Assembly: GCF_023169885.1 (NCBI RefSeq) | Contig: NZ_AP025516.1 | Coordinates: forward strand, 3,823,501-3,887,500 | Reading direction: 5' to 3' | Source: Desulfofustis limnaeus | GTDB lineage: Bacteria > Desulfobacterota > Desulfobulbia > Desulfobulbales > Desulfocapsaceae | DNA length: 64,000 nt | In this document: positions 47,719-62,953 of the stretch, piece after piece | How positions within the stretch are numbered: the stretch's first letter is position 1 | Layout: every line of letters starts with the position of its first letter | The notes under the pieces: generated by a model | Databases searched by the model: none | What the model was told of the DNA's origin: nothing | What the model saw: the letters and a program-made list of their open reading frames with translations, nothing else | Translations under genes and position numbers: made by a program

Positions 47719-49384
47719 GGGTCTGCTGAATAGTGTATAATAGTTTGTAATAACAAGATAAATGTTGTATGTTTTGCGTCGAAAGTGCACGAAAAATGAC
47801 AGATTCTCCTTCAAAACCTTGCACCTTCCGACCGCCCAACATGTATAAACATAACCTGAAACAGCTTGAGCTTCCCGAGTTCTCTTTACCCTTCCAAGGA
47901 GAGCTCTCCCGCGACAACAAATGGGTGAAAATGGCAGCTCTTATCCCATGGGAAGAGTTCGAGGCTCGCTACAAGAAGAACTTCGCCAAGAGTGGTACAG
48001 GATATCCTGCACTTTCTGTCAGAATGGCACTTGCCGCTTTGATCATCAAGGAAGAACTGAGGGCAAGTGACCGAGCATGCGTCGAGCAAATCACGGAGAA
48101 CCCATATCTACAGTACTTCTGTGGCCTCAAGGCTTTTATCACGTCTCCTCCGTTTGATGCCTCCCTGTTCGTCCATTTCCGCAAACGCTTCCCGGCGGAC
48201 GTGTTGAGTGAGGTCAATAATGCCATTGCCGACAGAGTTCGTAGTAACAGGCAGGACCACCCACCCAAAGATCCTCAGCCTCCCGTAAACGAGGAAGAAA
48301 CCACCACCATCTCCCCGGCACCTCCCAATCATGGCCGTTTGATGGTCGATGCAACGTGTACTCCCGCTGACATTACCTTCCCGACTGATATCAAGCTCCT
48401 CAACAAGGCCCGGGAGAAGAGTGAGCAGCTCATTGATATCCTCCATCAAGCAAGAGGAAAGGGATACAAGAAGCCTCGCTCATACCGTCAGCGCGCTCGA
48501 AAGCAATTCTTGTCCGTTGCCAAAGACAAACGGATGAGCCGTCAAAAAATACGTAGATGCCTTCGTCAACAGCTGGGATATCTGCGGCGCAATCTCAGGC
48601 ATATCGATCAACTTGCCAAGCAGGCAGGTATTGGCGCCCTGAAGCGCCGCCAATACAAGGATCTGCTGGTTATCTCAGAAGTGTTGCGCCAGCAGCAATG
48701 GATGTATGACAATCGCAGCAGGCGCATTGACGATCGTATTGTCAGCATCGAACAACCTCATGTACGTCCCATTAAACGAGGGAAAGCTGCTGCGGACACC
48801 GAGTTTGGTGCCAAAGTCAGTATCAGTCTCGTTGACGGCATTAGCTTTGTTGACACAATCAGCTGGGACAACTTCAATGAAGGTGGTGAGCTTGTCGATC
48901 AGATAGAGACCTATCGCAACCGTTTTGGCTACTACCCGGAATCGGTACATGCCGATAAGATCTATCGCAATCGTGACAATCGCCGGTACTGCAAGCAGAG
49001 AGGAATCCGCTTGTCCGGTCCCCGGCTTGGACGACCACCAAAAGTTACCGAAAGCAATGCTCAAGCTCTGAAGGATGCAGGAAAAATGGCCAGGCAGGAT
49101 GAGATCGCAAGAAATGCGGTTGAAGGTAAATTCGGTCAAGGAAAACGACGCTATAGCCTCAACCGCATCATGACCAGGCTCTCCTGCACCAGTGAGACTG
49201 CCATAATGGTGAGCTTTTTGGTTATGAACCTGAACAGGTGGCTGACCACCTTCGTTCTTTTCTTTTTTCAAAGATCAATGACGTTTTTATCGACCATACG
49301 GTCCGTCTTGTCGAGCTGGCTTGGTCCTCTATACAGGCCTGCAACCTAATGAAAAAGAAGAGGGACAACTTGTTCAGCAAGCCC
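47719..49384 (+). mobile_element. Insertion sequence, IS5/IS1182-type
   Basis: About 1.67 kb. The ends are GGGTCTGCTGAATA (left, 47719) and, read outward from the right end at 49384, GGGCTTGCTGAACA: imperfect inverted repeats of about 14 bp with three mismatches. Only TA flanks both ends, so any target duplication is 2 bp or absent. A TATAAT box at 47736-47741 may drive the transposase. The element splits an acyltransferase gene and abuts an IS200 element on its right side. If both flanks are joined they form a small palindrome (CTATG...CATAG). Confidence 0.7.
47769..49349 (+). CDS. Transposase, IS5/IS1182 type (DDE)
   Basis: Transposase of up to 526 aa; ATG 47796 (residue 10) and ATG 47841 (residue 25) are alternative starts. 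The N-terminal DUF772 domain (GYPALSVRMALAALIIKEEL; FDASLFVHFRKRF) is followed by a DDE catalytic core: MVDATCTPADI (first Asp), VHADKIYRNRDNRRYC (second Asp) and RNAVEGKFGQGKRRYSL (Glu). All three catalytic residues are present and the frame is unbroken, so the element may be active. Confidence 0.88.
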   Translation: MFCVESARKMTDSPSKPCTFRPPNMYKHNLKQLELPEFSLPFQGELSRDNKWVKMAALIPWEEFEARYKKNFAKSGTGYPALSVRMALAALIIKEELRASDRACVEQITENPYLQYFCGLKAFITSPPFDASLFVHFRKRFPADVLSEVNNAIADRVRSNRQDHPPKDPQPPVNEEETTTISPAPPNHGRLMVDATCTPADITFPTDIKLLNKAREKSEQLIDILHQARGKGYKKPRSYRQRARKQFLSVAKDKRMSRQKIRRCLRQQLGYLRRNLRHIDQLAKQAGIGALKRRQYKDLLVISEVLRQQQWMYDNRSRRIDDRIVSIEQPHVRPIKRGKAAADTEFGAKVSISLVDGISFVDTISWDNFNEGGELVDQIETYRNRFGYYPESVHADKIYRNRDNRRYCKQRGIRLSGPRLGRPPKVTESNAQALKDAGKMARQDEIARNAVEGKFGQGKRRYSLNRIMTRLSCTSETAIMVSFLVMNLNRWLTTFVLFFFQRSMTFLSTIRSVLSSWLGPLYRPAT

Positions 49385-49918
49385 TAGCATAGGTTGTATA
49401 GGATTTAGCCATGACCACGTATCGCCATGGCTCGCATACCGTTTTCTCTATCCACCTGCACGTGGTGTGGATTACGAAGTACCGTAAGAAAGTGTTGACG
49501 GAAAGTGTGGCCCTTCGAGTACGAGACATGATCCGGGAGACATGTCAACGGGAAGGGGTGGACATCATCAAAGGCCATGTGTCCAAGGACCATATCCACC
49601 TGTTCCTGTCGATTCCTCCGCAGGTGACAATAAGTCGTTTGGTGCAGAAACTGAAAGGGAAGACATCGTTCAAGCTGATGAATGAGTTTCCCCACCTGCG
49701 CAAGACGTTCTGGGGTAGACACTTTTGGGCTCGCGGGTATTTCTGCTGCAGCAGCGGCAACGTTACCGACGAGATGATCATCGAGTATATCGAGACTCAA
49801 GATGCAAGCTCCGATGATAATTTCAAGGTTGAGGGTGATGGAGAGAAGTCGGCGTAGCCGACCCCGCCAGCTTTAGCTGTTACGCGAAGCCACCGCCTTT
49901 AGGCGGTGGAGTATTCAC
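49385..49918 (+). mobile_element. IS200/IS605-type element (tnpA only)
   Basis: Single-gene IS200-like element. The right end carries the typical hairpin CCACCGCC-TTTA-GGCGGTGG (49890-49909) followed by AGTATTCAC. The left end is not resolved because the IS5/IS1182-type element lies directly against it. No tnpB accessory gene is present. Boundaries are approximate (plus or minus about 20 nt). Confidence 0.7.
49411..49857 (+). CDS. tnpA: IS200/IS605 family transposase TnpA
   Basis: Y1 HUH transposase of 148 aa. The HUH motif is H61-I-H63 (DHIHLF), and the catalytic tyrosine is Y126 (IIEYIETQ). FSIHLHVVWITKYRKKVL and the length match the IS200 family. It acts on single-stranded DNA at end hairpins; one such hairpin follows at 49890-49909. 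The reading frame is complete. Confidence 0.92.
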   Translation: MTTYRHGSHTVFSIHLHVVWITKYRKKVLTESVALRVRDMIRETCQREGVDIIKGHVSKDHIHLFLSIPPQVTISRLVQKLKGKTSFKLMNEFPHLRKTFWGRHFWARGYFCCSSGNVTDEMIIEYIETQDASSDDNFKVEGDGEKSA

Positions 49919-50634: not shown

Positions 50635-51960
50635 CACTGGTGTCCCAACGTTGATTGAAGATCAGCGATTAACTGTTTGATAATAATATATATTTCAAAC
50701 AAAATGCCGGTTAACGATTTGAAATTCGCAGCTCTCTGCGTTACTCCCTCTCAAACTACCAAGAGGGGGGCCGGCAATGAACTCAGGCAAATTGGTCTTC
50801 TCGCAAGTGATCGATCACTTGCCCCTGCATCATCTGCGTCAGTGTATTTCTCGCTACCGCGGCAATCGCAAAGTCAAGCAGTTCAGCTGCTACGACCAAT
50901 ATCTCAGCATGGTATTCGCTCAACTCACCTATCGGGAAAGTCTACGCGATATCGAAGCCTGTCTTCGAGCCCAAAAAAGCAAGTTGTATCATATGGGCAT
51001 CCGCGGCGGTATATCGAGAAACACCCTCGCCAATGCCAACAAGGTAAGAGACTGGCGCATCTATGCCGACTTTGCTCAAGTTCTTATCGCCATTGCTCGA
51101 AACCTCTACAGCAAAGACGATTTCGGGATCGAATTGGACGAAACGGTCTACGCGCTCGATTCCACTACCATCGATCTCAGTCTCACAACATTTCCTTGGG
51201 CCCATTTCCGTTCAACCAAAGCAGCCGTCAAGCTTCATACGCTGTTGGATCTGCGTGGCAATATCCCGACATTTCTGTCGATCAGCGATGGCAAAGTGCA
51301 CGATGTCAACATCTTGGACGAACTGATCCCCGAGCCAGGCAGCTTTTATGTCATGGATCGTGGCTATCTGGACTTTTCTCGTCTTTATGCCCTGAACCAG
51401 TGGGCCTCCTTTTTTGTCATTCGAGCAAAATCAAACTTCAGATTCGCTCGCATCTATTCTCACCACGTGGACAAGGATACCGGCTTGCGGTGCGATCAGA
51501 CGGTTCGTCTCACTGGTTTCTATTCGGCCAAGGATTATCCGGCCCCCTTGCGCCGAGTGAAGTTTTACGATGCCGAAACCGACAACATCCTCGTTTTTCT
51601 GACCAACAACTTTACCCTCCCTGCACAGACCATCGCCGATCTTTATCGGTGCCGCTGGCAGGTGGAGCTGTTTTTCAAATGGATCAAGCAGCACCTGCGA
51701 ATAAAATCGTTTTTCGGCACCTCAGAGAATGCGGTCAAAACCCAGATCTGGATAGCTGTTTCAGTATACGTTGCCGTAGCGATCATCAAAAAACAGTATC
51801 GAATTGAGGCCAGCCTGTACACAATGCTACAGATTTTGAGCGTAACCGTATTTGAAAAAGTTCCACTATTACAAGTGCTTGATCAAGGCGATCACAAATC
51901 CACCCCGAGCGATACGGGCAAGCAGTTAAGATTATTCGATTAAACGTTGGGACACTAGTG
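50635..51960 (+). mobile_element. IS4-family insertion sequence (1326 bp)
   Basis: The element is bounded by inverted repeats CACTGGTGTCCCAACGTT (50635-50652) and its complement at 51943-51960, 17 of 18 bases matching. A perfect 9-bp duplication AGAAGCTCT flanks it. The transposase fills most of the length. The perfect flanks suggest a recent single insertion. It lies between the broken acyltransferase gene and a methyltransferase gene and interrupts no recognisable gene. Confidence 0.9.
50777..51943 (+). CDS. IS4-family transposase
   Basis: DDE transposase of 388 aa with a DUF4372-type N-terminal region (VFSQVIDHLPLHHLRQCISRYRGN). The catalytic residues are D128 (ALDSTTIDLS), D193 (VMDRGYLDF) and E296 within the Y-R-E-K signature (DLYRCRWQVELFFKWIKQHL). 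These are typical of the ISPepr1-like branch of IS4. The frame is intact and its TAA lies in the right inverted repeat. GAGGGG precedes the ATG. Confidence 0.93.
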   Translation: MNSGKLVFSQVIDHLPLHHLRQCISRYRGNRKVKQFSCYDQYLSMVFAQLTYRESLRDIEACLRAQKSKLYHMGIRGGISRNTLANANKVRDWRIYADFAQVLIAIARNLYSKDDFGIELDETVYALDSTTIDLSLTTFPWAHFRSTKAAVKLHTLLDLRGNIPTFLSISDGKVHDVNILDELIPEPGSFYVMDRGYLDFSRLYALNQWASFFVIRAKSNFRFARIYSHHVDKDTGLRCDQTVRLTGFYSAKDYPAPLRRVKFYDAETDNILVFLTNNFTLPAQTIADLYRCRWQVELFFKWIKQHLRIKSFFGTSENAVKTQIWIAVSVYVAVAIIKKQYRIEASLYTMLQILSVTVFEKVPLLQVLDQGDHKSTPSDTGKQLRLFD

Positions 51961-53082: not shown

Positions 53083-53940
53083 TTACTGCCATTTGCCCTG
53101 CTTTAAACCATCTGCGGCAAGTAGAAAACGCCCCGGGTTGTCGGCATATGAAAAATCTATCGATTTCATTATCTTCTTCAGCTTGTGGAAATGAAGATAC
53201 ATGAATTCCTCCCCATAATACCCGTACACTCTGCCGTCCTCCCATTTCATTTGCCAATCAGCCGCTGAACTGTTTCGCTGGTAGCCACCGCTCGTCGTAA
53301 GAATGCGCTCCCAATAGACCCTTGGGTTACCGGAACATTTTGCTCTTCCGAGAAAATAGAGGCTTTGTTTGATTCGATTGGATGAGTTCAGAGCTTTGAG
53401 CAGCCTGCTCATGTGTTTTTCATCGACGTTGTAATGATGAGCATGGGTGACGAGTCGGTTGAAACCGAAGATCGAGCTGTAGAGCGAGTTGATCTGAGGT
53501 GTGTTGCGGTAGAGGGTGAAAGATCCCGAGAGCAGCTTGTAGCGGGAAGTTATGATATCGAAGGAATCGAGAATAGCAGGCGTTACAAAGGAAAAAATGT
53601 TACCCCAGACGACATCGATGTCGCAATGACCCCAGAAACGGTATTGGCCCAGATATTCAGCAAAAATGATTCCGAAAGCCGGGCGAAAATCACATATCTT
53701 GATCAGATTTGATGAAGAGATAGGCGGTATCACCTTGAGTCGAACAGAAACAAGTCCCTTGAATTGTTCGAGGGTCATCTGATGAAAGTAGACATTGTCA
53801 GGCTTTTCTGCTGGTTGACGATTATCTGAAAAAATATGCCAGTCGATACCCGGATTGTCTCTGCAAGAGAGCAGGAAGGCGGGCATCCAGAACGGAAAAG
53901 AACCGAAATAAGGGCTCAACAAGGCGATAGTCGAGTTCAT
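53083..53940 (-). CDS. DUF6625-like putative glycosyltransferase
   Basis: Protein of 285 aa from ATG 53940 (MNSTIALLSPYFGSFPFWMPAF); TTG 53961 would add seven residues. The opening strand PYFGSFPFWM, the NPGIDWHIFSDNR segment and the GHCDIDVVWGNI motif (a DxD-type metal site after helix RPAFGIIFAEYLGQ) fit DUF6625 (PF20330), a family predicted to have a GT-A-like fold. It is on the minus strand, opposite to the rest of the locus, and follows a sulfotransferase gene on that strand by about 30 nt. Confidence 0.72.
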   Translation of the reverse strand: MNSTIALLSPYFGSFPFWMPAFLLSCRDNPGIDWHIFSDNRQPAEKPDNVYFHQMTLEQFKGLVSVRLKVIPPISSSNLIKICDFRPAFGIIFAEYLGQYRFWGHCDIDVVWGNIFSFVTPAILDSFDIITSRYKLLSGSFTLYRNTPQINSLYSSIFGFNRLVTHAHHYNVDEKHMSRLLKALNSSNRIKQSLYFLGRAKCSGNPRVYWERILTTSGGYQRNSSAADWQMKWEDGRVYGYYGEEFMYLHFHKLKKIMKSIDFSYADNPGRFLLAADGLKQGKWQ

Positions 53941-53971
53941 GACATGACGGTACTTTTCCAAATCTGGGCGA

Positions 53972-54781
53972 TTATCTGCGAGGCGTGTAATCGAGCTCGC
54001 GCTTCCTCAGTTGTTGTTCGGTCAAGGCTTGCATGGGCTGGTAACCGAACATTTCGATGTCCTGGCCGTAAAGGTCGCCGACTATCCTGCGAGATGCTTC
54101 CGAATAGGCTTCCTGAAAAGGAACATGGTTGGTGGCAGTGGTTTTATTCTTGTGTTCAAGCGGTATTGTTCTGCCGTAGATACAATTGCTTATGTATACG
54201 AAGTCTTGTGTTAAGTGCTCGAAAAAACCGACATAATCAAGGTGCGGTCTGGATTCCAGGGGAAGACAGACGAACTCGTACTGCGGCCGGAAATGAATGC
54301 AGTGCCGAATGTCATTGCGATGCAACCCATTGCAGATAAAATCGTTGAAATCGCGATAAGCTGACAGGTGTTTCTTCGCCCACTCACGATTGTAGCCTTT
54401 ATATCCCCCCTGCAAAAGAAAATGGTAGGCCGAGAATATCTTGTCCCAAGGATTGCGGACAAAAGCGAATTTAAAGAGGGTCTCAAATTCCTTCTCGGTG
54501 AAGATCATCTGATAATCTTTCAGGCGGTTATGCCCGCCGCCGAGATGTGAGAAAAGGCTCGTACATACTGAAATGCCAGCAGCTTTCGGTATATGGATAA
54601 AGAGACATTGCAATTCAAGAAATGAACGATATGTGTAGCCTCTGGAGATCCCTGTTCGCAGGAACTGGTATCTCCGAAATTTTCGGGGGTGCAGAAGAGC
54701 AAAAATATTTTTCCGCCAGGAGTACGGAAAGGCTTGATACGCTCGGTCTGAAAGCATTTTCGGGCAGTCTTGTAAGTTCAT
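53972..54781 (-). CDS. Sulfotransferase family 2-like protein
   Basis: Protein of 269 aa from ATG 54781 (MNLQDCPKML); ATG 54757 is an alternative and neither has a clear ribosome site. The PAPS loop is FIHIPKAAGISVC (residues 61-73; HIPKxAGxS is diagnostic for the sulfotransferase-2 / carbohydrate sulfotransferase group) and the 3'-phosphate motif is FAFVRNPWDKIFSAYHF. It likely sulfates a polysaccharide hydroxyl. Upstream, in another frame, lies the N-terminus of a different sulfotransferase, so the 5' end of this gene may be a recombination joint. Confidence 0.8.
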   Translation of the reverse strand: MNLQDCPKMLSDRAYQAFPYSWRKNIFALLHPRKFRRYQFLRTGISRGYTYRSFLELQCLFIHIPKAAGISVCTSLFSHLGGGHNRLKDYQMIFTEKEFETLFKFAFVRNPWDKIFSAYHFLLQGGYKGYNREWAKKHLSAYRDFNDFICNGLHRNDIRHCIHFRPQYEFVCLPLESRPHLDYVGFFEHLTQDFVYISNCIYGRTIPLEHKNKTTATNHVPFQEAYSEASRRIVGDLYGQDIEMFGYQPMQALTEQQLRKRELDYTPRR

Positions 54782-54784
54782 AGG

Positions 54785-54923
54785 AGTAACTGAAACGGCG
54801 GCAACCGAGCAGATTGCAATAGCCGCTGATCGTGGTCGTACCCGTTTTGTTGATTCCGATGCCAAATATTTTGCGCTTTACAGGTGTTATCGTAGTATGT
54901 TCGGGATATGCGGTTGCCTGAAC
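54785..54923 (-). pseudogene. Remnant of a second sulfotransferase (N-terminal P-loop only)
   Basis: On the minus strand, in a different frame from the adjacent gene, about 45 codons read VKRKIFGIGINKTGTTTI followed by NLLGCRRFSYSYELTR. GxNKTGTT is the PAPS P-loop of another sulfotransferase class and is followed by the usual LLGxR segment. The frame begins after a TAG (54924-54926) without any ATG, GTG or TTG and soon enters the start of the next gene. No 3' half of this class is present, so it is a truncated remnant. The 343 nt from 54924 to 55266 hold no recognisable gene. Confidence 0.45.
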
Positions 54924-55266: not shown

Positions 55267-56352
55267 ATGGTTTCGGTAAGAATATTCGGAGCCGGTTCAA
55301 TCGGTAATCATCTTGGTTTTGCGTGTCGGCAGAAAGGATGGCAGGTCGAACTGTGTGACCGAGATAAAGCCGCGCTCGAGAGGACCCGAAAGGACATTTA
55401 TCCGGGACGCTATGGCGCCTGGGACGAAGCAATACAATTGACACCGGCAGACGGTTTGGCAGACGAGTACCGGGATGTTGTCATCGTCGGCACGCCGCCC
55501 GAATATCACATTCCCGTGGCGCTGGATCAGATCAGGAAAATTTCGCCAAAGATCGTCCTGATCGAGAAACCGCTTTGTCCCCCGAGTCTGGATGGTGTCA
55601 AGGAACTGGTTGAAACTGCAAGGGAACACGAATGCCTTGTCCTCGTGGGTTACAATCATACGCTTACGAGAAATACCAGAGCAGCGGAGCAATTGGTCGC
55701 GGACAAAACTGTTGGAGACGTGGTCACTATCGATGCCGGATTTCGCGAGTATTGGGGAGGGATTTTTGCCGCCCACCCCTGGCTCGATGGGCCGAAAGAC
55801 AGTTACCTGGGCTATCTCTCCAAGGGTGGCGGAGCGACAGGCGAACATTCCCACGCCATCAACATCTGGCAGCATTTTGCCCATTTGACCGGGCATGGCC
55901 GAATTACCAAGGTTGCTGCCATGCATCAGATCGTTCGGGACGGTGGCGTCGAGTATGATCAGATCGGGCAGATGCTCGTGGAGACGGAGTCGGGATTGAT
56001 CGGAAACATCGTTCAGGATGTGGTGACCGAGCCTCCGGAGAAGAAGGTAAAAATGATTGGTACGTCTGGGTATATCGAATGGCAGGTGAACGCGACTTCG
56101 GACAGCGACGCGGTCAGATGCAAGTCGGGTGGCAAGCCGGTTCATGAGCAGCTGTTCAAGAAAACCCGGCCTGACGACTTTGTCGGGGAAATCGATCATA
56201 TTGCAATGCTGTTGGAAAATCCGAAGCTGGATTCGCCAATCTCCCTGACCAGGGGAATCGAGACCATGCTGGTCATCGAGGCGGCTTATGAGGCGAGCAG
56301 GGAGAACCGGTTCGTCGCCATTGATTACTCCCGTTTTCCATTATCTCTTTGA
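55267..56352 (+). CDS. Gfo/Idh/MocA-type NAD-dependent oxidoreductase
   Basis: Protein of 361 aa. ATG 55267 has AAGGAG 8-9 nt upstream. N-terminal Rossmann motif IFGAGSIGNHLG, the EKPL motif with the catalytic lysine (IVLIEKPLCPP), and the TGEHSHAINIWQHF segment with the conserved histidines of this family. It probably oxidises or reduces a sugar or sugar nucleotide. It leads a tight cassette with neuB-cupin, HAD phosphatase and neuA, and so may modify the nonulosonate or its precursor. Confidence 0.85.
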   Translation: MVSVRIFGAGSIGNHLGFACRQKGWQVELCDRDKAALERTRKDIYPGRYGAWDEAIQLTPADGLADEYRDVVIVGTPPEYHIPVALDQIRKISPKIVLIEKPLCPPSLDGVKELVETAREHECLVLVGYNHTLTRNTRAAEQLVADKTVGDVVTIDAGFREYWGGIFAAHPWLDGPKDSYLGYLSKGGGATGEHSHAINIWQHFAHLTGHGRITKVAAMHQIVRDGGVEYDQIGQMLVETESGLIGNIVQDVVTEPPEKKVKMIGTSGYIEWQVNATSDSDAVRCKSGGKPVHEQLFKKTRPDDFVGEIDHIAMLLENPKLDSPISLTRGIETMLVIEAAYEASRENRFVAIDYSRFPLSL

Positions 56353-56363
56353 AGGGGGTGAGG

Positions 56364-57896
56364 ATGAAGCCTTTTACATTCGAAAATCTGTTTGTTCTCG
56401 ATCTGGCCAATAATCATCAGGGCGAATTGGAACACGGACTGAGCGTGATCGAAAAGCATGGTGAGGTCGTCAAGAAACACGGGGTGCGTGCCGGCCTGAA
56501 ATTCCAGTTTCGCCAACTGGATACGTTTATCCATCCGGATTTCAAAGAGAGAAAGGACATCAACCATATCCCCCGATTTGTCGAAACGGCTCTGTCGCTC
56601 GACGATTATGAGGAACTGGTCGATGCCGTGCACCGCCAAGGAATGGTGAGTATTTGCACACCATTTGATGAGGAATCGGTCGATATCATCCTGGAAATGG
56701 GTATCGAGGTCATCAAGGTGGCTAGTTGTTCGGCCTCTGATTGGCCATTGCTCAGAAAGATAGCGCAAACCAATCGCCCGGTCATTATTTCAACGGGCGG
56801 TTTGTCCATGAGTAAGATTGATCGCCTGGTAAGTTACTTCGAATATGAGAAGGCGCATTTCGCTCTGATGCACTGTGTTGCCCTCTACCCGACGCCGCCG
56901 GAGAAGACTGAACTCAATCAGATAGACCTGCTGAAAAACCGCTTTCCCTCTCTGACCATCGGTTTCTCGACACATGAACACCCCGACAATCTGGTGAATG
57001 TCGGGATAGCATATGGGAAGGGGGCAAGAATATTCGAGCGACATGTTGGGTTCGAGACGGACAGACATAAATTGAACAAGTATTCTTCCACACCGGAGCA
57101 GGTGGATCGATGGATCACCGCCTGGCAGCAGGCGCAAGCAATTTGTGGAGGAGATTACCGGGTGCCGGCAGACCCCGCCGAGACAGCTTCGCTGCGGTCA
57201 TTGATGCGCGGAGTCTATGCCAGGCAGAACATTTCAGCAGGAGAGACCATTGAGCAAGGACAGGTCTTTTTTGCGATGCCCCTACAAGAAGGCCAATTGA
57301 CCAGCGGCGATTTCGTTGGCGGCATCACGGCCGCTCGTGACTACCAAGCAGGAGTTCCACTCGACGGCTCTTTGGCGAATCTCGAACCGAGAGATCAAGA
57401 TCGGATATTCCAGATCATGCTGCAGGTGAAAGGGATCCTCAATCAGGCACGAATCTTTATCGGCAGGGAGAGTGCCATTGAAATCTCACACCACTATGGA
57501 TTGGAGCATTTCCGGGAGTTCGGGGCCGTCATAATCACCTGCATCAATCGAAGCTATTGTAAGAAACTCATCGTCATGCTTCCTCGCCAGAAGCATCCTT
57601 ACCACTTCCACAAGAAGAAGGAAGAAACGTTTCAACTCCTCTGGGGAGATGTCGAGATCGAGTTGGCGGGAAAAAGAACCAAGCTCGAACCAGGTGACAT
57701 CTTTACCGTTCTGGGAGGAGAGTGGCATAAGTTCCATACGCTGGACGGCTGTGTCTTTGAAGAAGTCTCAACGACCCACTTCGACAACGATTCCTTTTAC
57801 GAGGATGAGCGCATAGCAAAGCTTCCGCGGGAGCAACGAAAGACGCAGCTGGATAATTGGGAATCGGTAACCCGGGATGTCATCCGCACCAGATAA
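56364..57896 (+). CDS. neuB: NeuB-family nonulosonate synthase fused to a SAF and a cupin domain
   Basis: Protein of 510 aa. ATG 56364 follows AAGGGGGTGAGG; TTG 56349 is less likely. Residues 1-270 form the NeuB TIM barrel (LDLANNHQGELEHG; LKFQFRQLDTF; ISTGGLSM; HCVALYPTPPE; IGFSTHE). Residues 285-345 form an antifreeze-like SAF domain (SLRSLMRGVYARQNISAGETI). From about residue 400 there is a cupin (HPYHFHKKKEETFQLLWGDVEIEL ... LEPGDIFTVLGGEWHKF) with metal-type histidines and glutamate. NeuB enzymes condense PEP with a hexose-type aldose. The added cupin is unusual for sialate synthases and may bind or isomerise a sugar. Confidence 0.85.
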   Translation: MKPFTFENLFVLDLANNHQGELEHGLSVIEKHGEVVKKHGVRAGLKFQFRQLDTFIHPDFKERKDINHIPRFVETALSLDDYEELVDAVHRQGMVSICTPFDEESVDIILEMGIEVIKVASCSASDWPLLRKIAQTNRPVIISTGGLSMSKIDRLVSYFEYEKAHFALMHCVALYPTPPEKTELNQIDLLKNRFPSLTIGFSTHEHPDNLVNVGIAYGKGARIFERHVGFETDRHKLNKYSSTPEQVDRWITAWQQAQAICGGDYRVPADPAETASLRSLMRGVYARQNISAGETIEQGQVFFAMPLQEGQLTSGDFVGGITAARDYQAGVPLDGSLANLEPRDQDRIFQIMLQVKGILNQARIFIGRESAIEISHHYGLEHFREFGAVIITCINRSYCKKLIVMLPRQKHPYHFHKKKEETFQLLWGDVEIELAGKRTKLEPGDIFTVLGGEWHKFHTLDGCVFEEVSTTHFDNDSFYEDERIAKLPREQRKTQLDNWESVTRDVIRTR

Positions 57897-58542
57897 AGAT
57901 TGCCAGACCGGTTGTACCGCTGATGCGGGCGGCACGATCAAAGTCATCGTGTTTGATTTCGATGGGACGCTCGTTCAGTCCAACCTGATCAAATCACAGG
58001 CATGGCATGACCTGTTTGCCGGCGATGCCGTTTGCCGTGCAGTGCTGCCAACCGTTCTCAGACAGCACGGGGAGGCATCGCGTTACATCATCATCGGAAA
58101 GGTTTGGGAGCGCGCCTTTGGCGAGAACTTCGATCAGGAGCTATTATCTGGAATCATAGCTGATTATGCCCGGCGGTATAATCAGCTCGTATCGGATCGG
58201 GTCAAGATGTGCCCCGAGATGCCGGGAGCCTCCGAAACAATACAGAACCTGTTCGCAAAGGTGCCGCTTTACTGCAGCTCGCAAACGCCCGAAACAGAGC
58301 TGCAAACCATTCTCCACCACCGTGGATGGAGTCGTTATTTCAAAGGAATGTACGGATACCCCAGGATAAAAAGGGAAACAGTGGAACGCATCATGTCTGC
58401 CGAACAGGTGTTTCCGGAAGAACTACTCGTTGTCGGGGACGGAGAGTCGGATCGGGAGGCGGCGGAAAAAGCGGGAGCCCGATTCTTTCCTGTCGTCGCG
58501 AATACCGACTTGCGGAGCTTGCTGAAGCTGTGCGGCGAATGA
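57877..58542 (+). CDS. HAD-superfamily phosphatase
   Basis: HAD hydrolase of 221 aa. The catalytic motif is VFDFDGTLVQS (D27 nucleophile, D29), a cap domain follows (about 40-110), then YCSSQTPE (motif II), a lysine in GYPRIKRETVE (motif III), and VVGDGESDREAA (motif IV). It overlaps neuB by 20 nt. The context suggests removal of a phosphate from a nonulosonate-9-phosphate or a similar precursor; a phosphatase step is needed when a NeuB uses a 6-phosphate sugar. Confidence 0.85.
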   Translation: MSSAPDKDCQTGCTADAGGTIKVIVFDFDGTLVQSNLIKSQAWHDLFAGDAVCRAVLPTVLRQHGEASRYIIIGKVWERAFGENFDQELLSGIIADYARRYNQLVSDRVKMCPEMPGASETIQNLFAKVPLYCSSQTPETELQTILHHRGWSRYFKGMYGYPRIKRETVERIMSAEQVFPEELLVVGDGESDREAAEKAGARFFPVVANTDLRSLLKLCGE

Positions 58543-58592
58543 CCCGTAAGGTTTCAGGCCAATTTCTAAACAGGTGACTGTTACGACCGGAT

Positions 58593-59303
58593 ATGTTGTT
58601 CGATAAGAGAATACTCGCCGTGGTCCCGGCGCGAGGCGGCAGCAAAGGGATCAAATTGAAGAATCTGCGTGAAGTCGGTGGTGTTCCGCTGGTCGCTATC
58701 GCCGGGCGATTGCTCCGTGATATGCCGGAAATCGACCGTGCGGTTGTTTCCACTGACCATGAACTCATCAGAGATGTTGCCGTGGCTTCGGGATTGGAGG
58801 CTCCGTTCATGAGACCGGAAGCTATTGCCGGAGACAGGATCGGGGACCTCGAGGTGCTCACCCATGCCCTGCATGCCGTTGAGGAAGATGATGGCCAGCG
58901 ATACGATATTGTCGTTATGATTCAGCCGACTTGCCCCTTGCGCACAAAAGCGCACATCCTGGATTCCATCGGGAAGCTGATCGAGGGGGGGTATGATGCC
59001 GTCTGGACCGTGAGCCTCACAGATTCCAAGGCACACCCGCTGAAGCAACTGGTCTTACGCAATGATCACCTGGATTATTACGACCAGCGGGGAGCAGCGA
59101 TTATCGCCCGGCAACAGCTGGAACCACTGTACCACCGCAATGGCGCCGCATACGCGATAAGCAGAGAATGCCTGCTGCACAAGAAATCGATCAAGGGAGA
59201 TCGAACGTCAGCAATCGTTGTCGAAGAGTTTTTGCCGAACATCGACACAGAGCTCGATCTTCACTTCGCCGATTTCTTTTTGACCAGGTTATCGAACCCG
59301 TGA
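58593..59303 (+). CDS. neuA: Acylneuraminate cytidylyltransferase-like (CMP-nonulosonate synthase)
   Basis: Protein of 236 aa with the NeuA/KdsB-type nucleotide motif VVPARGGSKGIKLKNL (residues 10-25), the VVSTDHELIRDVA segment, PEAIAGDRI, MIQPTCPLRTKAHI, and the late RNGAAYAISREC. It activates a 2-keto sugar acid as the CMP derivative. It is 50 nt after the HAD gene. The downstream surface-carbohydrate gene starts with GTG overlapping this stop. Confidence 0.9.
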   Translation: MLFDKRILAVVPARGGSKGIKLKNLREVGGVPLVAIAGRLLRDMPEIDRAVVSTDHELIRDVAVASGLEAPFMRPEAIAGDRIGDLEVLTHALHAVEEDDGQRYDIVVMIQPTCPLRTKAHILDSIGKLIEGGYDAVWTVSLTDSKAHPLKQLVLRNDHLDYYDQRGAAIIARQQLEPLYHRNGAAYAISRECLLHKKSIKGDRTSAIVVEEFLPNIDTELDLHFADFFLTRLSNP

Positions 59304-60775
59304 CAGACACATCCACCTCGTTGAGATTGATTCCCCCGCTTCACTGGCTCATTATCCCCATCGAAACGAAGGTCAGGGAGTTCGATGCGAAACTCTTGCT
59401 CAGTTGTGCCGCAGCGGAGGCGGGTTACGGGGTCGTTCTCGGTCATCAGCATACGATTCAACGAACATGGCGGAAGATGCCCTGCAGCATCGTTTTCGAC
59501 AAGAGCGTGGTGAAATCGAACGAGAAGAGATTCGCGGCTTACAAAAGGCTTGGAAACGGTGTTTTCGCCTGGTGCGAAGAAGGTCTTTTGCTTGCGGACG
59601 AGCAGGACTATGCGAACAGGAAGCTCTATCAGCCGACACTGCGACAGCTTGATCTGTTTTGTTCCTGGGGCGCCAACCAGACGCGAGTAGTGCTGAACAA
59701 GATTCCTGAAATCAAGGACAGATTGCATAATGTCGGCAATCCGAGAATGGATCTGCTGCGGCCGGAAGTCCGCGACTATTTTGCCGAGGAAGCGGAGGCG
59801 ATCAAAAAGGTTTTTGGCCCGTTCCTGCTGATAAACACCAATTTCGCTGCGTACAACAACATACGCGGGTCCGAGACATCGCTTGAGATCCAGAAGCGAA
59901 GCGGCAAGATACGTTCTTCCGAAGGGGAACGGCTTTTCCGTGAGTTCGTGCAATTCAAGGAAAGGATGTTCCATGCATTTATCTCCCTGGTGGAAGCACT
60001 CGCCAAGGCTTTTCCCGCGTACACGATCGTTGTTCGACCCCATCCAGCCGAAGATCATGAGGTATGGCGAAAAACTGTTTCGAGCTGGTCAAATGTCCGG
60101 ATAGTGCATGAAGGAAACGTGGTCAATTGGATCCTCGCGGCTGAAGTGACCATTCAAAATGGATGCACGACCGGGATCGAATCGTTTTTGCTGGACAGGC
60201 CGACCATTTCTTATCAGCCGTTTGCCGCGAAGATTTATGAGGACTATCTCCCTGATGTTCTCGGTATGGCTGTCAAAAGTGAAAAAGACCTGATTGAACT
60301 GGTACGTTCCATCTGCTCAGGGACCCATGTGGCGGACGAGCAGGAGCAGGTGCGAAAACGAGAGCTCGCCAGACACTTCATAGAAAACATCGACGGTGAC
60401 CTTTGTATCGATCGCATCGTCACCCTCTTGCCCCTTCTCAGAAAAAAAGAAGATGTCATCGCGGGAAACATTTTCGTCCAGACCGCAAGGCAGGTGCGAA
60501 ACTGGCAGACGACCTGGCGTTATTTTGCCCGATCCGTCAAGGACCGACTGATCGATGGGCAGAGCATGACACTGAAAAAAGCCGGACGGAAGAGCCTGGC
60601 AAGCGTGCAGGAAAAAGTTGTCAAACAGGTTTTCCCCGGACTTGCCCTTGATGAGGTGAATGCAGCTGTGCGCAGATTTCAACTGGTCATGCAACGGTTT
60701 GACAACGTGCAAGTTTTACCGTACGAAAAGAACTGTTTCGTGATTGCTCCGTGGAGGTACGGTGGAGACGATTGA
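59300..60775 (+). CDS. Surface carbohydrate biosynthesis protein (GT-B-like)
   Basis: Protein of 491 aa with a GTG start at 59300 overlapping the neuA stop. It resembles the surface carbohydrate biosynthesis family (TIGR04396) and polysialyltransferase-like GT-B proteins: N-terminal LHWLIIPIETKVREFDAKLLLSC, central FLLINTNFAAYNN, and donor-half VVRPHPAEDHEVW followed by NGCTTGIESFLLDRPTISYQP, the pattern of CMP-sugar or glycerophosphate transferases. The position right after neuA makes a CMP-nonulosonate transferase role plausible, but this is inference from context. Confidence 0.75.
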   Translation: MTDTSTSLRLIPPLHWLIIPIETKVREFDAKLLLSCAAAEAGYGVVLGHQHTIQRTWRKMPCSIVFDKSVVKSNEKRFAAYKRLGNGVFAWCEEGLLLADEQDYANRKLYQPTLRQLDLFCSWGANQTRVVLNKIPEIKDRLHNVGNPRMDLLRPEVRDYFAEEAEAIKKVFGPFLLINTNFAAYNNIRGSETSLEIQKRSGKIRSSEGERLFREFVQFKERMFHAFISLVEALAKAFPAYTIVVRPHPAEDHEVWRKTVSSWSNVRIVHEGNVVNWILAAEVTIQNGCTTGIESFLLDRPTISYQPFAAKIYEDYLPDVLGMAVKSEKDLIELVRSICSGTHVADEQEQVRKRELARHFIENIDGDLCIDRIVTLLPLLRKKEDVIAGNIFVQTARQVRNWQTTWRYFARSVKDRLIDGQSMTLKKAGRKSLASVQEKVVKQVFPGLALDEVNAAVRRFQLVMQRFDNVQVLPYEKNCFVIAPWRYGGDD

Positions 60776-60779
60776 CGGT

Positions 60780-61733
60780 ATGGCAAAGTCAAAGAAAGAG
60801 CCATGCCTGGTTTTTTTGTTGTACATGAACCGGTCCGGCTCGACCCTGCTTGCACAAATGCTGGATCGCTACCGGGAAATAGGTGTGACGCCGGAGGCCA
60901 ATATTCCCGACGGCCTGTTGCTTGGTAAAGCCGATATCCGAGAGCACAGCGATATCTCAGCTTATCTCGACAAGCTCTACCAGGATCAAAAATTCTGCAG
61001 TTGGAACGTTGATCGGGGGAAACTGGAGGAAGCGTTGCAGCGCACGACCCTTCCTTTCGGTTATGAGCATATCCTCACGGAAATTTTAAACACTTATTTT
61101 CCCCGAGCAGAAGCATCGATACGGGTCTACAAACGGGGTCACTATATCACCTGCGTGCCGGGGCTACGCAAGCTTTTTCCCGGCTGCCGGTTCTTGTTCA
61201 TCGAAAGGGACCCCCGGGCAATTTTTGAATCCCAGAAACGGAGTATCGATAGTGTCACCGGTCGGGTCATGGCCGTCAACCCAGCCGAAAGGGCAATCAA
61301 GTACGTCCGAACGATGAGATTGGTGAAAACCTACTCGAAGGACGAAGATTTCTTCGTGGTGCGATATGAAGATCTGGTTGTAGATCCTGATCGGATAATT
61401 CGTTCAGTTTTGGATTTTCTTGAGGTCGGTACGAGGGCGGTCGAGCAGTCCCACTATTTTGCAAAAATCCCCGAAAGCCAGCATCATCTGCACCAGGGTA
61501 TTCTGGGGAAGCCCACCGTTCAGAAGGTCGATGCTTGGAAAAAGAAATTGAGTCAAAAGGAGATAGCGGTGATCCAGTTGCTGGCGGCCCCAACCCTTCG
61601 TTCACGAGGTTATGAGTTACTCCGGACACATGCGGGCTTCTGGGAATGTGGCGTGTATTTTCTGGGGACAATCAGCCATCTGCTGTTTTGTCATCTGACA
61701 GCAGAGGTGTTCCGGCGACTGTCAAAACGGTAA
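60780..61733 (+). CDS. Sulfotransferase-family protein
   Basis: Protein of 317 aa. ATG 60780 is used; GTG 60762 has a better-spaced GGAGG and would add six residues. The PAPS loop is LYMNRSGSTLLAQML (about 14-28; RSGST type), and the 3'-phosphate motif is FLFIERDPRAIFESQKRS near residue 145. VVRYEDLVVDPDRIIRSVLDFL is typical of sulfotransferase_1/3 members. It has a C-terminal hydrophobic stretch. It is the third intact sulfotransferase of the locus and probably sulfates a glycan. Confidence 0.85.
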   Translation: MAKSKKEPCLVFLLYMNRSGSTLLAQMLDRYREIGVTPEANIPDGLLLGKADIREHSDISAYLDKLYQDQKFCSWNVDRGKLEEALQRTTLPFGYEHILTEILNTYFPRAEASIRVYKRGHYITCVPGLRKLFPGCRFLFIERDPRAIFESQKRSIDSVTGRVMAVNPAERAIKYVRTMRLVKTYSKDEDFFVVRYEDLVVDPDRIIRSVLDFLEVGTRAVEQSHYFAKIPESQHHLHQGILGKPTVQKVDAWKKKLSQKEIAVIQLLAAPTLRSRGYELLRTHAGFWECGVYFLGTISHLLFCHLTAEVFRRLSKR

Positions 61734-61792
61734 TGATCGATGTCTAGCTCCGCATCGGCAGGTATAAATCGTGTTCATTGTCGCTGTTTGGT

Positions 61793-62953
61793 ATGAGAGC
61801 GAATGATTCCAGACTGCAGCAGGTCCAATCTGACGGATCAAAAGAATCAACTGGTCCCGGCGGGATCATCAGGGTCGCGATCATAGCCGATGGGATGCCG
61901 GCAGGAGGAACCGAGCGACAGATCGTTGCTCTCCTGAAGGGATTGAGGCAGTCGTGCCGGGGTATCGAAACCCTTTTTGGCACCTTGGTGAAGGGTGGTG
62001 CCCGTGAAAAGGAAGCGATGCTCTGGGCGAACGAGGTCCTGCCGATACGGCAGCGGCATCAATTCGATATTTCCCTTGCGTGGTCTCTTGTCCGGTTTGT
62101 CAAACGTTATCGCATCGACATCGTTCATTCTTTTGGAAGCATCGCTGATCTTTCGGCACTTGTTGCTTCCAGGGTGACCGGAGTCAAGTTCGTCAACGGT
62201 TCGATCAGGTCGGCAAGAAGAAAGCTTACGAGACGCGACTGGCTCAGTAAGCTGACCATGCCCTTTGCCGACGCGATCGTGGCCAATTCCAAAGCCGGCC
62301 TACGGGCTTTCGGGATGGACCGGAAGGCAAAGGCACAGGTGATATACAATGGGATAGATTTTCCGCCGGTTGCCGGTGTGAAAAAGACAGATTTTCCTGG
62401 TCCGTATATCTGTATGGTTGGAAATTTCTCGTCAAAAAAGGACCATAAGTCGCTCATTGAAGCATTTCCCTTCGTGCTTGAAAAGCAACAGGACTACCGA
62501 CTCGTGCTTGTTGGCAGAGGGGAGCGGGAAGATTGCTGCCGGCAGTTGATCGATCAACTAGGCATCGAGGATCGCGTCTTTATCGTCAACGATTGCGATG
62601 AACCGGCACCATGGGTAAAGGGGGCATCTATCTGCGTTCTCTTGAGCCCTGATGGGGAAGGGTTGTCCAACGTTATCATGGAATACTGTGCTCTCGGAAA
62701 GCCGGTTCTCGCCAGCGATCTTGGAGGGAATGCCGAAATAATCGAAGATGGGGTCTCGGGAATTCTGTTGCGATCGCATGACCCGCTTACGGTCAGTTCA
62801 GCTCTTTTGGCTCTTTTGAGCGACGAAGGGAAAATGAAGCGAATTGCAGGAAAGGCTAGAGACGTGATCAAAGAGCGCTTTCTCCTGCAAAGAATGATTG
62901 ATGACTACTGTGAACTGTACACTCATTTGATAAAAAAAACAGGTTTGTCCTGA
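61793..62953 (+). CDS. Glycosyltransferase family 4 protein
   Basis: GT-B enzyme of 386 aa from ATG 61793. N-terminal VAIIADGMPAGGTERQIVALL, then a short DIVHSFGSIADL motif, VIYNGIDF, the donor-half start CMVGNFSSKKDHKSLIEAF, and the E-x7-E region LLSPDGEGLSNVIMEYCALGKPVLASDLGGNAEII. The first ~25 residues are low in similarity to GT4 enzymes and the true start could be further in. galE follows after 8 nt. Confidence 0.88.
   Translation: MRANDSRLQQVQSDGSKESTGPGGIIRVAIIADGMPAGGTERQIVALLKGLRQSCRGIETLFGTLVKGGAREKEAMLWANEVLPIRQRHQFDISLAWSLVRFVKRYRIDIVHSFGSIADLSALVASRVTGVKFVNGSIRSARRKLTRRDWLSKLTMPFADAIVANSKAGLRAFGMDRKAKAQVIYNGIDFPPVAGVKKTDFPGPYICMVGNFSSKKDHKSLIEAFPFVLEKQQDYRLVLVGRGEREDCCRQLIDQLGIEDRVFIVNDCDEPAPWVKGASICVLLSPDGEGLSNVIMEYCALGKPVLASDLGGNAEIIEDGVSGILLRSHDPLTVSSALLALLSDEGKMKRIAGKARDVIKERFLLQRMIDDYCELYTHLIKKTGLS

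Follow-up and report, generated by a model that had tools for sequence, protein, structure and literature searches.

A conserved cassette around a sialic acid synthase-cupin fusion in Desulfofustis limnaeus is a candidate pathway to a Kdn-type ulosonic acid

A five-gene cassette and its proposed pathway

We analyzed a stretch of 64,000 nucleotides from the genome of Desulfofustis limnaeus (contig NZ_AP025516.1, positions 3,823,501 to 3,887,500; hereafter, the window) and focused on five tightly packed genes on one strand at positions 55267 to 60775 of the window. They encode a Gfo/Idh/MocA oxidoreductase (GFO), a fusion of a NeuB-SAF synthase with a cupin, a HAD phosphatase, a NeuA homologue, and a TIGR04396 protein. 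This five-gene set is a conserved cassette and more than a chance grouping, because the same gene order recurs across records of several phyla. The cassette very probably makes a cytidine monophosphate (CMP)-activated, sialic-acid-like sugar for the cell surface, and this product is probably free of nitrogen. We tentatively favor a self-contained pathway to a CMP-activated, nitrogen-free 3-deoxy-2-ulosonic acid of the Kdn (ketodeoxynonulosonic acid) type that is modified by GFO; we infer its substrates, order of steps, and product from the gene set and its conservation, homology, the conservation of active-site residues, and the fact that the family searches revealed no further known route.

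In the proposed pathway, the C-terminal cupin would convert a ketose phosphate, with fructose 6-phosphate as the likeliest substrate, to a 2,3-cis aldose phosphate, with mannose 6-phosphate as the likeliest product, and the NeuB-SAF part of this polypeptide would condense the aldose phosphate with phosphoenolpyruvate (PEP) to an ulosonate phosphate, either Kdn 9-phosphate or an isomer. HAD would then remove the phosphate, the NeuA homologue would turn the ulosonate into a CMP-sugar, and the TIGR04396 glycosyltransferase would transfer the sugar to a surface glycan that is probably sulfated too. GFO would carry out a redox step, either an oxidation or an oxidation-reduction epimerization, on the hexose phosphate or the ulosonate; given a dedicated step of this kind, the final sugar would probably be a Kdn isomer or a keto or epimer derivative. 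The original prediction likened the combination of a phosphatase and NeuB to Kdn-like routes from a hexose 6-phosphate, and a route of this kind from a hexose phosphate is the best fit here.

All five genes that the original prediction assigned to the cassette are present. In the list below, gene starts were adjusted by eye, and residues D247 and R314, like the other synthase-site residues discussed later, are numbered by mapping on NeuB of Neisseria meningitidis (NmNeuB).

55267 to 56352, + strand: Gfo/Idh/MocA oxidoreductase (GFO), 361 amino acids, with GFO_IDH_MocA and GFO_IDH_MocA_C3 domains (Pfam)
56349 to 57896, + strand: NeuB-SAF-cupin fusion, 515 amino acids from TTG at 56349 or 510 amino acids from ATG at 56364
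56388 to 57158, + strand: NeuB TIM-barrel domain of the fusion (approximately residues 14 to 270), PEP and metal residues kept, N243 as the D247 equivalent
57186 to 57389, + strand: SAF (antifreeze-like) domain of the fusion, M310 as the R314 equivalent
57456 to 57833, + strand: cupin domain of the fusion, D-lyxose/D-mannose isomerase type, with Cupin_2 and PF07385 matches
57877 to 58542, + strand: HAD phosphatase, phosphoglycolate-phosphatase-like, with a HAD_2 match
58593 to 59303, + strand: NeuA/PseF-like CMP-ulosonate cytidylyltransferase, with a CTP_transf_3 match
59300 to 60775, + strand: TIGR04396 GT-B-like surface carbohydrate protein, candidate ulosonate transferase, start GTG at 59300

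The GFO start at ATG 55267 is preceded by AAGGAG, and for the TIGR04396 protein we took GTG 59300, which overlaps the NeuA stop, in preference to a longer open reading frame from 59168. The predicted tight packing with overlaps applies to NeuB and HAD (20 bases) and to NeuA and the glycosyltransferase (4 bases), but HAD and NeuA are separated by a gap of 50 bases. A promoter and terminator scan gave a signal no better than in shuffled sequence.

Distribution of the fusion and its partners

A scan of genome contigs returned at least 589 pattern matches and at least 556 confirmed NeuB-cupin relatives; the fusion is therefore widespread, which the original prediction had not noticed. Co-occurrence was assessed by tblastn with the window proteins on the best 80 of these loci, picked by their likeness to an alignment from the window's phylum, so the counts lean to the window's type of cassette. 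Sixty-three of the 80 had at least 1.5 kb upstream and at least 2.5 kb downstream (hereafter, flanked loci). Among these, GFO was found in 57, HAD in 51, NeuA in 58, and TIGR04396 in 21, with GFO, HAD, and NeuA together in 45. Records that contain the cassette carry the titles Desulfobacterota/Deltaproteobacteria, Alphaproteobacteria, Planctomycetota, Verrucomicrobiota, Nitrospirota, and candidate phyla; a large share of these records are metagenome bins, whose taxon titles may be wrong. The nearest named relative, Desulfofustis glycolicus DSM 9705, has a NeuB-cupin that is 89% identical and lies in the same surrounding gene set. None of 90 plasmid records and 3 phage records had a match covering 80% of the query, and the 30 plasmid and 3 phage matches listed were all below 30% identity.

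Within the window's phylum, 16 of 395 genomes had NeuB-like matches at E ≤ 1e-30. At the same threshold, the GFO subfamily was found in 7 of the 395, including the genome of the window, and in 7/7 it immediately precedes a NeuB of this subfamily (in one, genome G338, the contig ends before a cupin is visible). The cupin (E ≤ 1e-8) gave 14 matches in 13 genomes, all in open frames of 502 to 556 amino acids with NeuB, and with 14/14 matches fused, no free-standing cupin beside an unfused NeuB was found in the phylum. Another phylum genome encodes a homologue from this NeuB subfamily that has no cupin (44% identity; L027:7654-8757, minus strand) and no recognizable isomerase gene next to it, and no isomerase gene was recognized by eye beside the cupin-less NeuB homologue in genome G317.

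The cupin as a candidate isomerase

An AlphaFold2 model of the fusion had a mean pLDDT (predicted local distance difference test) of 92.8. Its C-terminal part matched the D-lyxose isomerases 2y0o, 7nzp, and 7nzo in Foldseek (E 3e-12 to 1e-11) and also the D-lyxose isomerases 7nzq and 3kmh; a phmmer comparison of the cupin with 7nzo gave E 6.3e-9. In the Thermofilum enzyme, the sugar is contacted by K62, H75, H77, K86, E88, H143, E156, and D163 (PMC8378251). All eight residues are identical in the window protein when it is aligned to 7nzo, with K406, H419, H421, K424, E426, H460, and E472 as the equivalents of the first seven. The window cupin therefore carries the hallmark of D-lyxose/D-mannose isomerases, namely, three His and one Glu as metal ligands and the catalytic Lys and Glu. 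For the family as a whole, we aligned the 120 of 128 NeuB-cupin open reading frames that were 480 to 560 amino acids long. In this alignment, six of the eight active-site positions show no variation, the H75 position has H in 102 sequences and Q in the other 18, and the D163 position has D in just 11.

This residue conservation is strong evidence, although no proof, that the cupin is an active aldose-ketose isomerase. The original prediction regarded the fused cupin as an extra; as an isomerase homologue with its catalytic residues kept, it could instead supply the aldose for NeuB. It shares its fold and its metal and catalytic residues with the D-lyxose/D-mannose isomerases 7nzo and 2y0o, which are free-standing, whereas here the domain is fused to NeuB. 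We consider it improbable that the cupin is a binding or oligomerization module devoid of isomerase activity, with NeuB using mannose 6-phosphate derived from the bifunctional GDP-mannose pyrophosphorylase/phosphomannose isomerase (GMP/PMI). Six invariant active-site residues in 120/120 sequences would be needless in a mere scaffold, even though a cupin-less subfamily homologue exists (L016/L027), the solved 3g8r chain has no cupin, GMP/PMI is present in the genome, and one cupin metal ligand is Q in 18 relatives.

Fold and active site of the synthase

The NeuB half matches PF03102 (E 1.7e-41), and its barrel with PEP and Mn residues, together with the SAF domain, places it in the NeuB/sialic acid synthase superfamily. 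It falls far below the curated cutoffs for N-acetylneuraminate synthase (TIGR03569, 137.4 versus 399.65 bits) and pseudaminate synthase (TIGR03586, 117.5 versus 340.25 bits). In structure comparisons of the model, the nearest solved structure to the barrel and SAF was 3g8r from Chromobacterium violaceum, titled 'putative spore coat polysaccharide biosynthesis protein E' (Z 40.1, 333 residues, root mean square deviation [rmsd] 1.4, 42 to 43% identity). Like the NeuB-cupins, 3g8r has N at the D247 place and a hydrophobic residue, F, at the R314 place; unlike them, it has no cupin in the solved chain. NmNeuB (Z 32.8, 325 residues, rmsd 4.2) and Campylobacter jejuni PseI (Z 29.9) share the TIM barrel, SAF, and PEP and metal residues with the window protein, but they have only 21 to 24% identity and no cupin, and their R314 and D247 are replaced in the window protein.

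KDO8P and DAHP synthases were at Z of about 23 to 24. The more distant resemblance of the barrel to KDO8P synthase, and the fact that the best solved cupin homologues act on lyxose and xylulose, would suit an eight-carbon, Kdo (ketodeoxyoctulosonic acid)-like ulosonate, for which the cupin would turn a pentulose phosphate into lyxose or arabinose 5-phosphate as the sugar to be condensed by NeuB. We give such a product little chance: the synthase groups with NeuB and PseI and has SAF (Z 40.1 for 3g8r and 32.8 for NmNeuB versus about 23 for KDO8P synthase), its cassette partner is NeuA/PseF-like, and a separate KdsB is present in the genome, so Kdo activation exists independently of the cassette.

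We compared the synthase site of the 120 aligned NeuB-cupins with a set of 12 cupin-less NeuB-type proteins, which are those of at least 325 amino acids among 31 other NeuB-like proteins at the same loci and were not classified by family model. The equivalents of K53, Q55, T110, K129, S132, S213, H215, E234, and H236 are kept in 120/120 NeuB-cupins. At the D247 position, all 120 have N, whereas 12/12 cupin-less proteins have D. The R314 position is M in 88 NeuB-cupins, F in 12, W in 12, and I in 8; in the cupin-less proteins it is R in 10 and K in 2. In addition, R55, H62, and R76 are invariant in 120/120 NeuB-cupins, and each of them is shared by no more than 2 of the 12 cupin-less proteins.

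In NmNeuB, R314 touches the N-acetyl group of N-acetylmannosamine (ManNAc) (PMC6795526). Because this contact is replaced by hydrophobic residues, the acceptor of the NeuB-cupins may be non-N-acetylated. The arginine, a hallmark of NmNeuB-type enzymes, is absent from the window protein (M310), and the human enzyme lacks it too. The replacement of D247 throughout the family implies that the substrate or chemistry may differ from those of every characterized synthase compared, perhaps including ordinary Kdn synthases. A further position, E25, varies with the presence of GFO: where this residue could be called, 60 loci have D, 56 of them with GFO, and 58 have E, 52 of them without it. We rejected this coupling as proof of a functional link, since the residue changed only twice on the tree, in about one clade, and the loci are not independent evidence. 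E25D in the GFO-bearing clade may hint at a different acceptor, but no more than that.

The oxidoreductase partner

GFO has a predicted structure with a pLDDT of 93.9, and an EKP motif and an EHSH motif are conserved in 27 aligned relatives. Many sugar dehydrogenases fit this structure equally well. Levoglucosan, scyllo-inositol, GenD2, WlbA, aldose-aldose, and sialic acid oxidoreductases all scored Z 33 to 36 at 16 to 22% identity, and we rejected assigning a function from structure. RgNanOx (Z 33.1) and E. coli YjhC (Z 33.8), which are GFO enzymes with a sialic acid role, resemble the cassette GFO in fold at 17 to 18% identity; since many other GFO enzymes score alike, no function follows from this likeness. 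The original prediction also called the oxidoreductase extra. It is a dedicated, conserved partner of NeuB-cupin, and it probably tailors the ulosonate or its precursor.

Two further readings were considered. It is possible, although doubtful, that the cassette is a widespread, undescribed route to a new CMP-ulosonic acid, in which GFO would first make a keto or epimerized hexose phosphate and the cupin would convert it to the acceptor aldose for a rebuilt NeuB site (R314 lost, D247N, and E25D in the GFO clade). Alternatively, the cassette would make plain CMP-Kdn, and GFO would act elsewhere, for example, on another glycan residue or in cofactor recycling. Every core step of a plain Kdn route has precedent (PMC9000132, PMC6200933), and Kdn itself is reported in about 50 prokaryotic glycan structures, mostly from environmental bacteria (PMC7845648). 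It is also abundant in the extracellular polymeric substances of granular sludge, where it ranks second among the nonulosonic acids in three of four types (PMC10483923). Against this, the GFO subfamily goes together with this NeuB (7/7 in the phylum and 57/63 flanked loci), and the solved PseI, Leptospira NeuB, and SpsE do not have D247N, so that we regard plain Kdn as rather unlikely.

Phosphatase, cytidylyltransferase, and glycosyltransferase

A phosphatase and a CMP synthetase beside the synthase, as a Kdn-9-phosphate pathway would lead one to expect, are both in the window. The presence of HAD in 51/63 and NeuA in 58/63 flanked loci points to a phosphorylated acceptor and a CMP-sugar. The best NCBIfam match of NeuA is PseF (116 bits), below the cutoff of 205.7. 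The last protein of the cassette scores 367.7 bits for TIGR04396 ('surface carbohydrate biosynthesis protein') against a cutoff of 125, and it also matches BFO_1060_trans below the cutoff; BFO_1060 is presumably GtfS-like. Tannerella has a GT-B ulosonate transferase, GtfS (PMC6120980). Of the 80 genomic loci, 23 have a PF13489 methyltransferase in their flanking stretch, often placed between HAD and NeuA (for example, L080:8241-9140), where O-methylation of the ulosonate is a possible role.

Related systems and other routes in the genome

Bacterial Kdn genes have precedents in Bacteroides thetaiotaomicron (PMC6200933) and Serratia (PMC9000132). B. thetaiotaomicron makes Kdn from mannose 6-phosphate via Kdn 9-phosphate, with a phosphatase and a CMP-Kdn synthetase; in Prymnesium, the same synthase and CMP synthetase activities are reported, and a phosphatase gene was not found (PMC6200933). 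The cassette shares with this route, by description and not by sequence, a synthase, a phosphatase, a CMP synthetase, and the hexose phosphate logic, but the accessible part of that source describes neither a fused isomerase nor a GFO partner. In Serratia marcescens, a Kdn-containing capsule requires a NeuB that carries a fused sugar-phosphate isomerase domain, and deletion of neuB leads to loss of sialic acid (PMC9000132). The fused domain of its KL1/KL2 loci is COG1082 rather than cupin, Neu5Ac (N-acetylneuraminic acid) is found there too at about 1:20, and the accessible text gives only neuA and neuB as distinguishing genes (PMC9000132). Our literature search, in which most subscription papers were outside the scope, found no report on a NeuB or sialic acid synthase fused to a cupin.

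The genome is a single contig of 4.23 Mb and is 97.8% complete. PF03102 gave one match only, with no second NeuB. The one Epimerase_2 (PF02350) match is WecB-like (184 bits versus the WecB cutoff of 210), PseG gave no match, and all PseB matches were below the cutoff, the best being dTDP-glucose dehydratase. Nine DegT matches correspond to eight genes; the best three score below the PseC and LegC cutoffs, and the five weaker ones were not classified. The lack of a NeuC-type epimerase or Leg/Pse aminotransferase in the window, stated in the original prediction, was confirmed and extends to the whole genome: no NeuC, Pse, or Leg partner scored above cutoff and no complete known pathway was found among the families searched, which did not include the NeuC and LegB models by name. 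As far as these searches reach, we therefore rejected a standard Neu5Ac, Leg, or Pse pathway.

An N-acetylated product, whether from an animal-type ManNAc-6-phosphate route or from an ordinary Neu5Ac, legionaminic, or pseudaminic acid pathway with genes elsewhere, is accordingly very improbable. In its favor, the human synthase uses ManNAc 6-phosphate and likewise has no arginine at R314, the genome encodes a WecB-like epimerase, and NeuA and NeuB score best against PseF and NeuB/PseI models, respectively, although all far below cutoffs. Such a product is hard to reconcile with a single NeuB, with no NeuC-like match, no PseG, and no PseB or (for the three best DegT matches) PseC/LegC above cutoff, and with a mannose/lyxose-type isomerase that has no evident use in these routes.

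Points against the proposed pathway and a second group of fusions

Several observations weigh against the GFO-modified, Kdn-type pathway that we favor. D-lyxose isomerases use free sugars, whereas the proposed cupin substrate is phosphorylated, and with GMP/PMI in the genome the cell does not strictly depend on another source of mannose 6-phosphate. The human synthase for sialic acid, which uses both ManNAc 6-phosphate and mannose 6-phosphate, has V or G at R314, depending on gap placement in the 1wvo alignment; losing R314 is therefore compatible with either kind of phosphorylated acceptor and is not proof of a nitrogen-free one. PseI, Leptospira NeuB, and SpsE have D where 120/120 NeuB-cupins have N. 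GFO is not needed in any of the Kdn pathways compared, as far as the accessible sources describe them, and it adjoins only 6 of the 14 cupins in the phylum (2 are at contig ends, and 6 lie in another type of neighborhood, that of the second group below). HAD was undetected in 12 of the 63 flanked loci. Finally, NeuB-cupins on 55 viral contigs are accompanied by HAD in 0/55 and by GFO in 3/55, and some bacterial NeuB-cupins are likewise without the cassette HAD and mostly without GFO.

At least two pathways thus seem to make use of the fusion. The flanking stretches of the 55 viral loci contain a thiamine-diphosphate enzyme in 18, DegT in 18, a C-methyltransferase in 14, and Nudix in 5, with families assigned from one representative per cluster. 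Examples among L112 to L165, which include a full-length thiamine-diphosphate enzyme, a PF08484 C-methyltransferase, DegT, and Nudix, are L122:3043-4824, L138:3032-4192, and L123:12167-12733. We speculate that the viral NeuB-cupins belong to a second pathway, perhaps one in which the ulosonate is a donor for the thiamine-diphosphate enzyme. One phage contig with a NeuB-cupin also encodes a separate SAF-less NeuB of approximately 277 amino acids (L137:5501-6334; PF03102, E 5.5e-79), and a SAF-less NeuB similarly lies beside NeuB-cupin in phage contigs L125, L139, L141, and L156.

Genomic surroundings

The genes next to the cassette in the window are as follows.

53083 to 53961, - strand: DUF6625 protein, upstream (family match)
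53972 to 54865, - strand: sulfotransferase, upstream and divergent (PF03567)
60744 to 61733, + strand: sulfotransferase, directly downstream of the cassette (PF13469)
61778 to 62953, + strand: GT4 glycosyltransferase, downstream (family matches)

A GalE gene follows the downstream sulfotransferase and GT4 genes. The DUF6625 gene is also found upstream of the cassette in D. glycolicus (locus L031), and the downstream sulfotransferase is also matched in loci L031 and L049. This sulfotransferase probably acts on the same glycan as the cassette, and the two differing flanking sulfotransferases suggest a sulfated, ulosonate-bearing glycan. Transposases of the IS5, IS200/IS605, and IS4 types (47769 to 49349, 49411 to 49857, and 50777 to 51943) lie between Wzt/PglK-type polysaccharide genes and the cassette, in a stretch with lower GC than the first 26 kb of the window.

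Significance

The cassette is a strong candidate for the genes behind environmental Kdn-type sugars, and its function can be tested directly with four or five enzymes. Such a test would give an annotation to a large protein family that is without an NCBIfam model of its own. If the doubtful alternative of a new ulosonic acid were true, the product would have passed as 'Kdn' or as an unassigned nonulosonic acid in environmental surveys.

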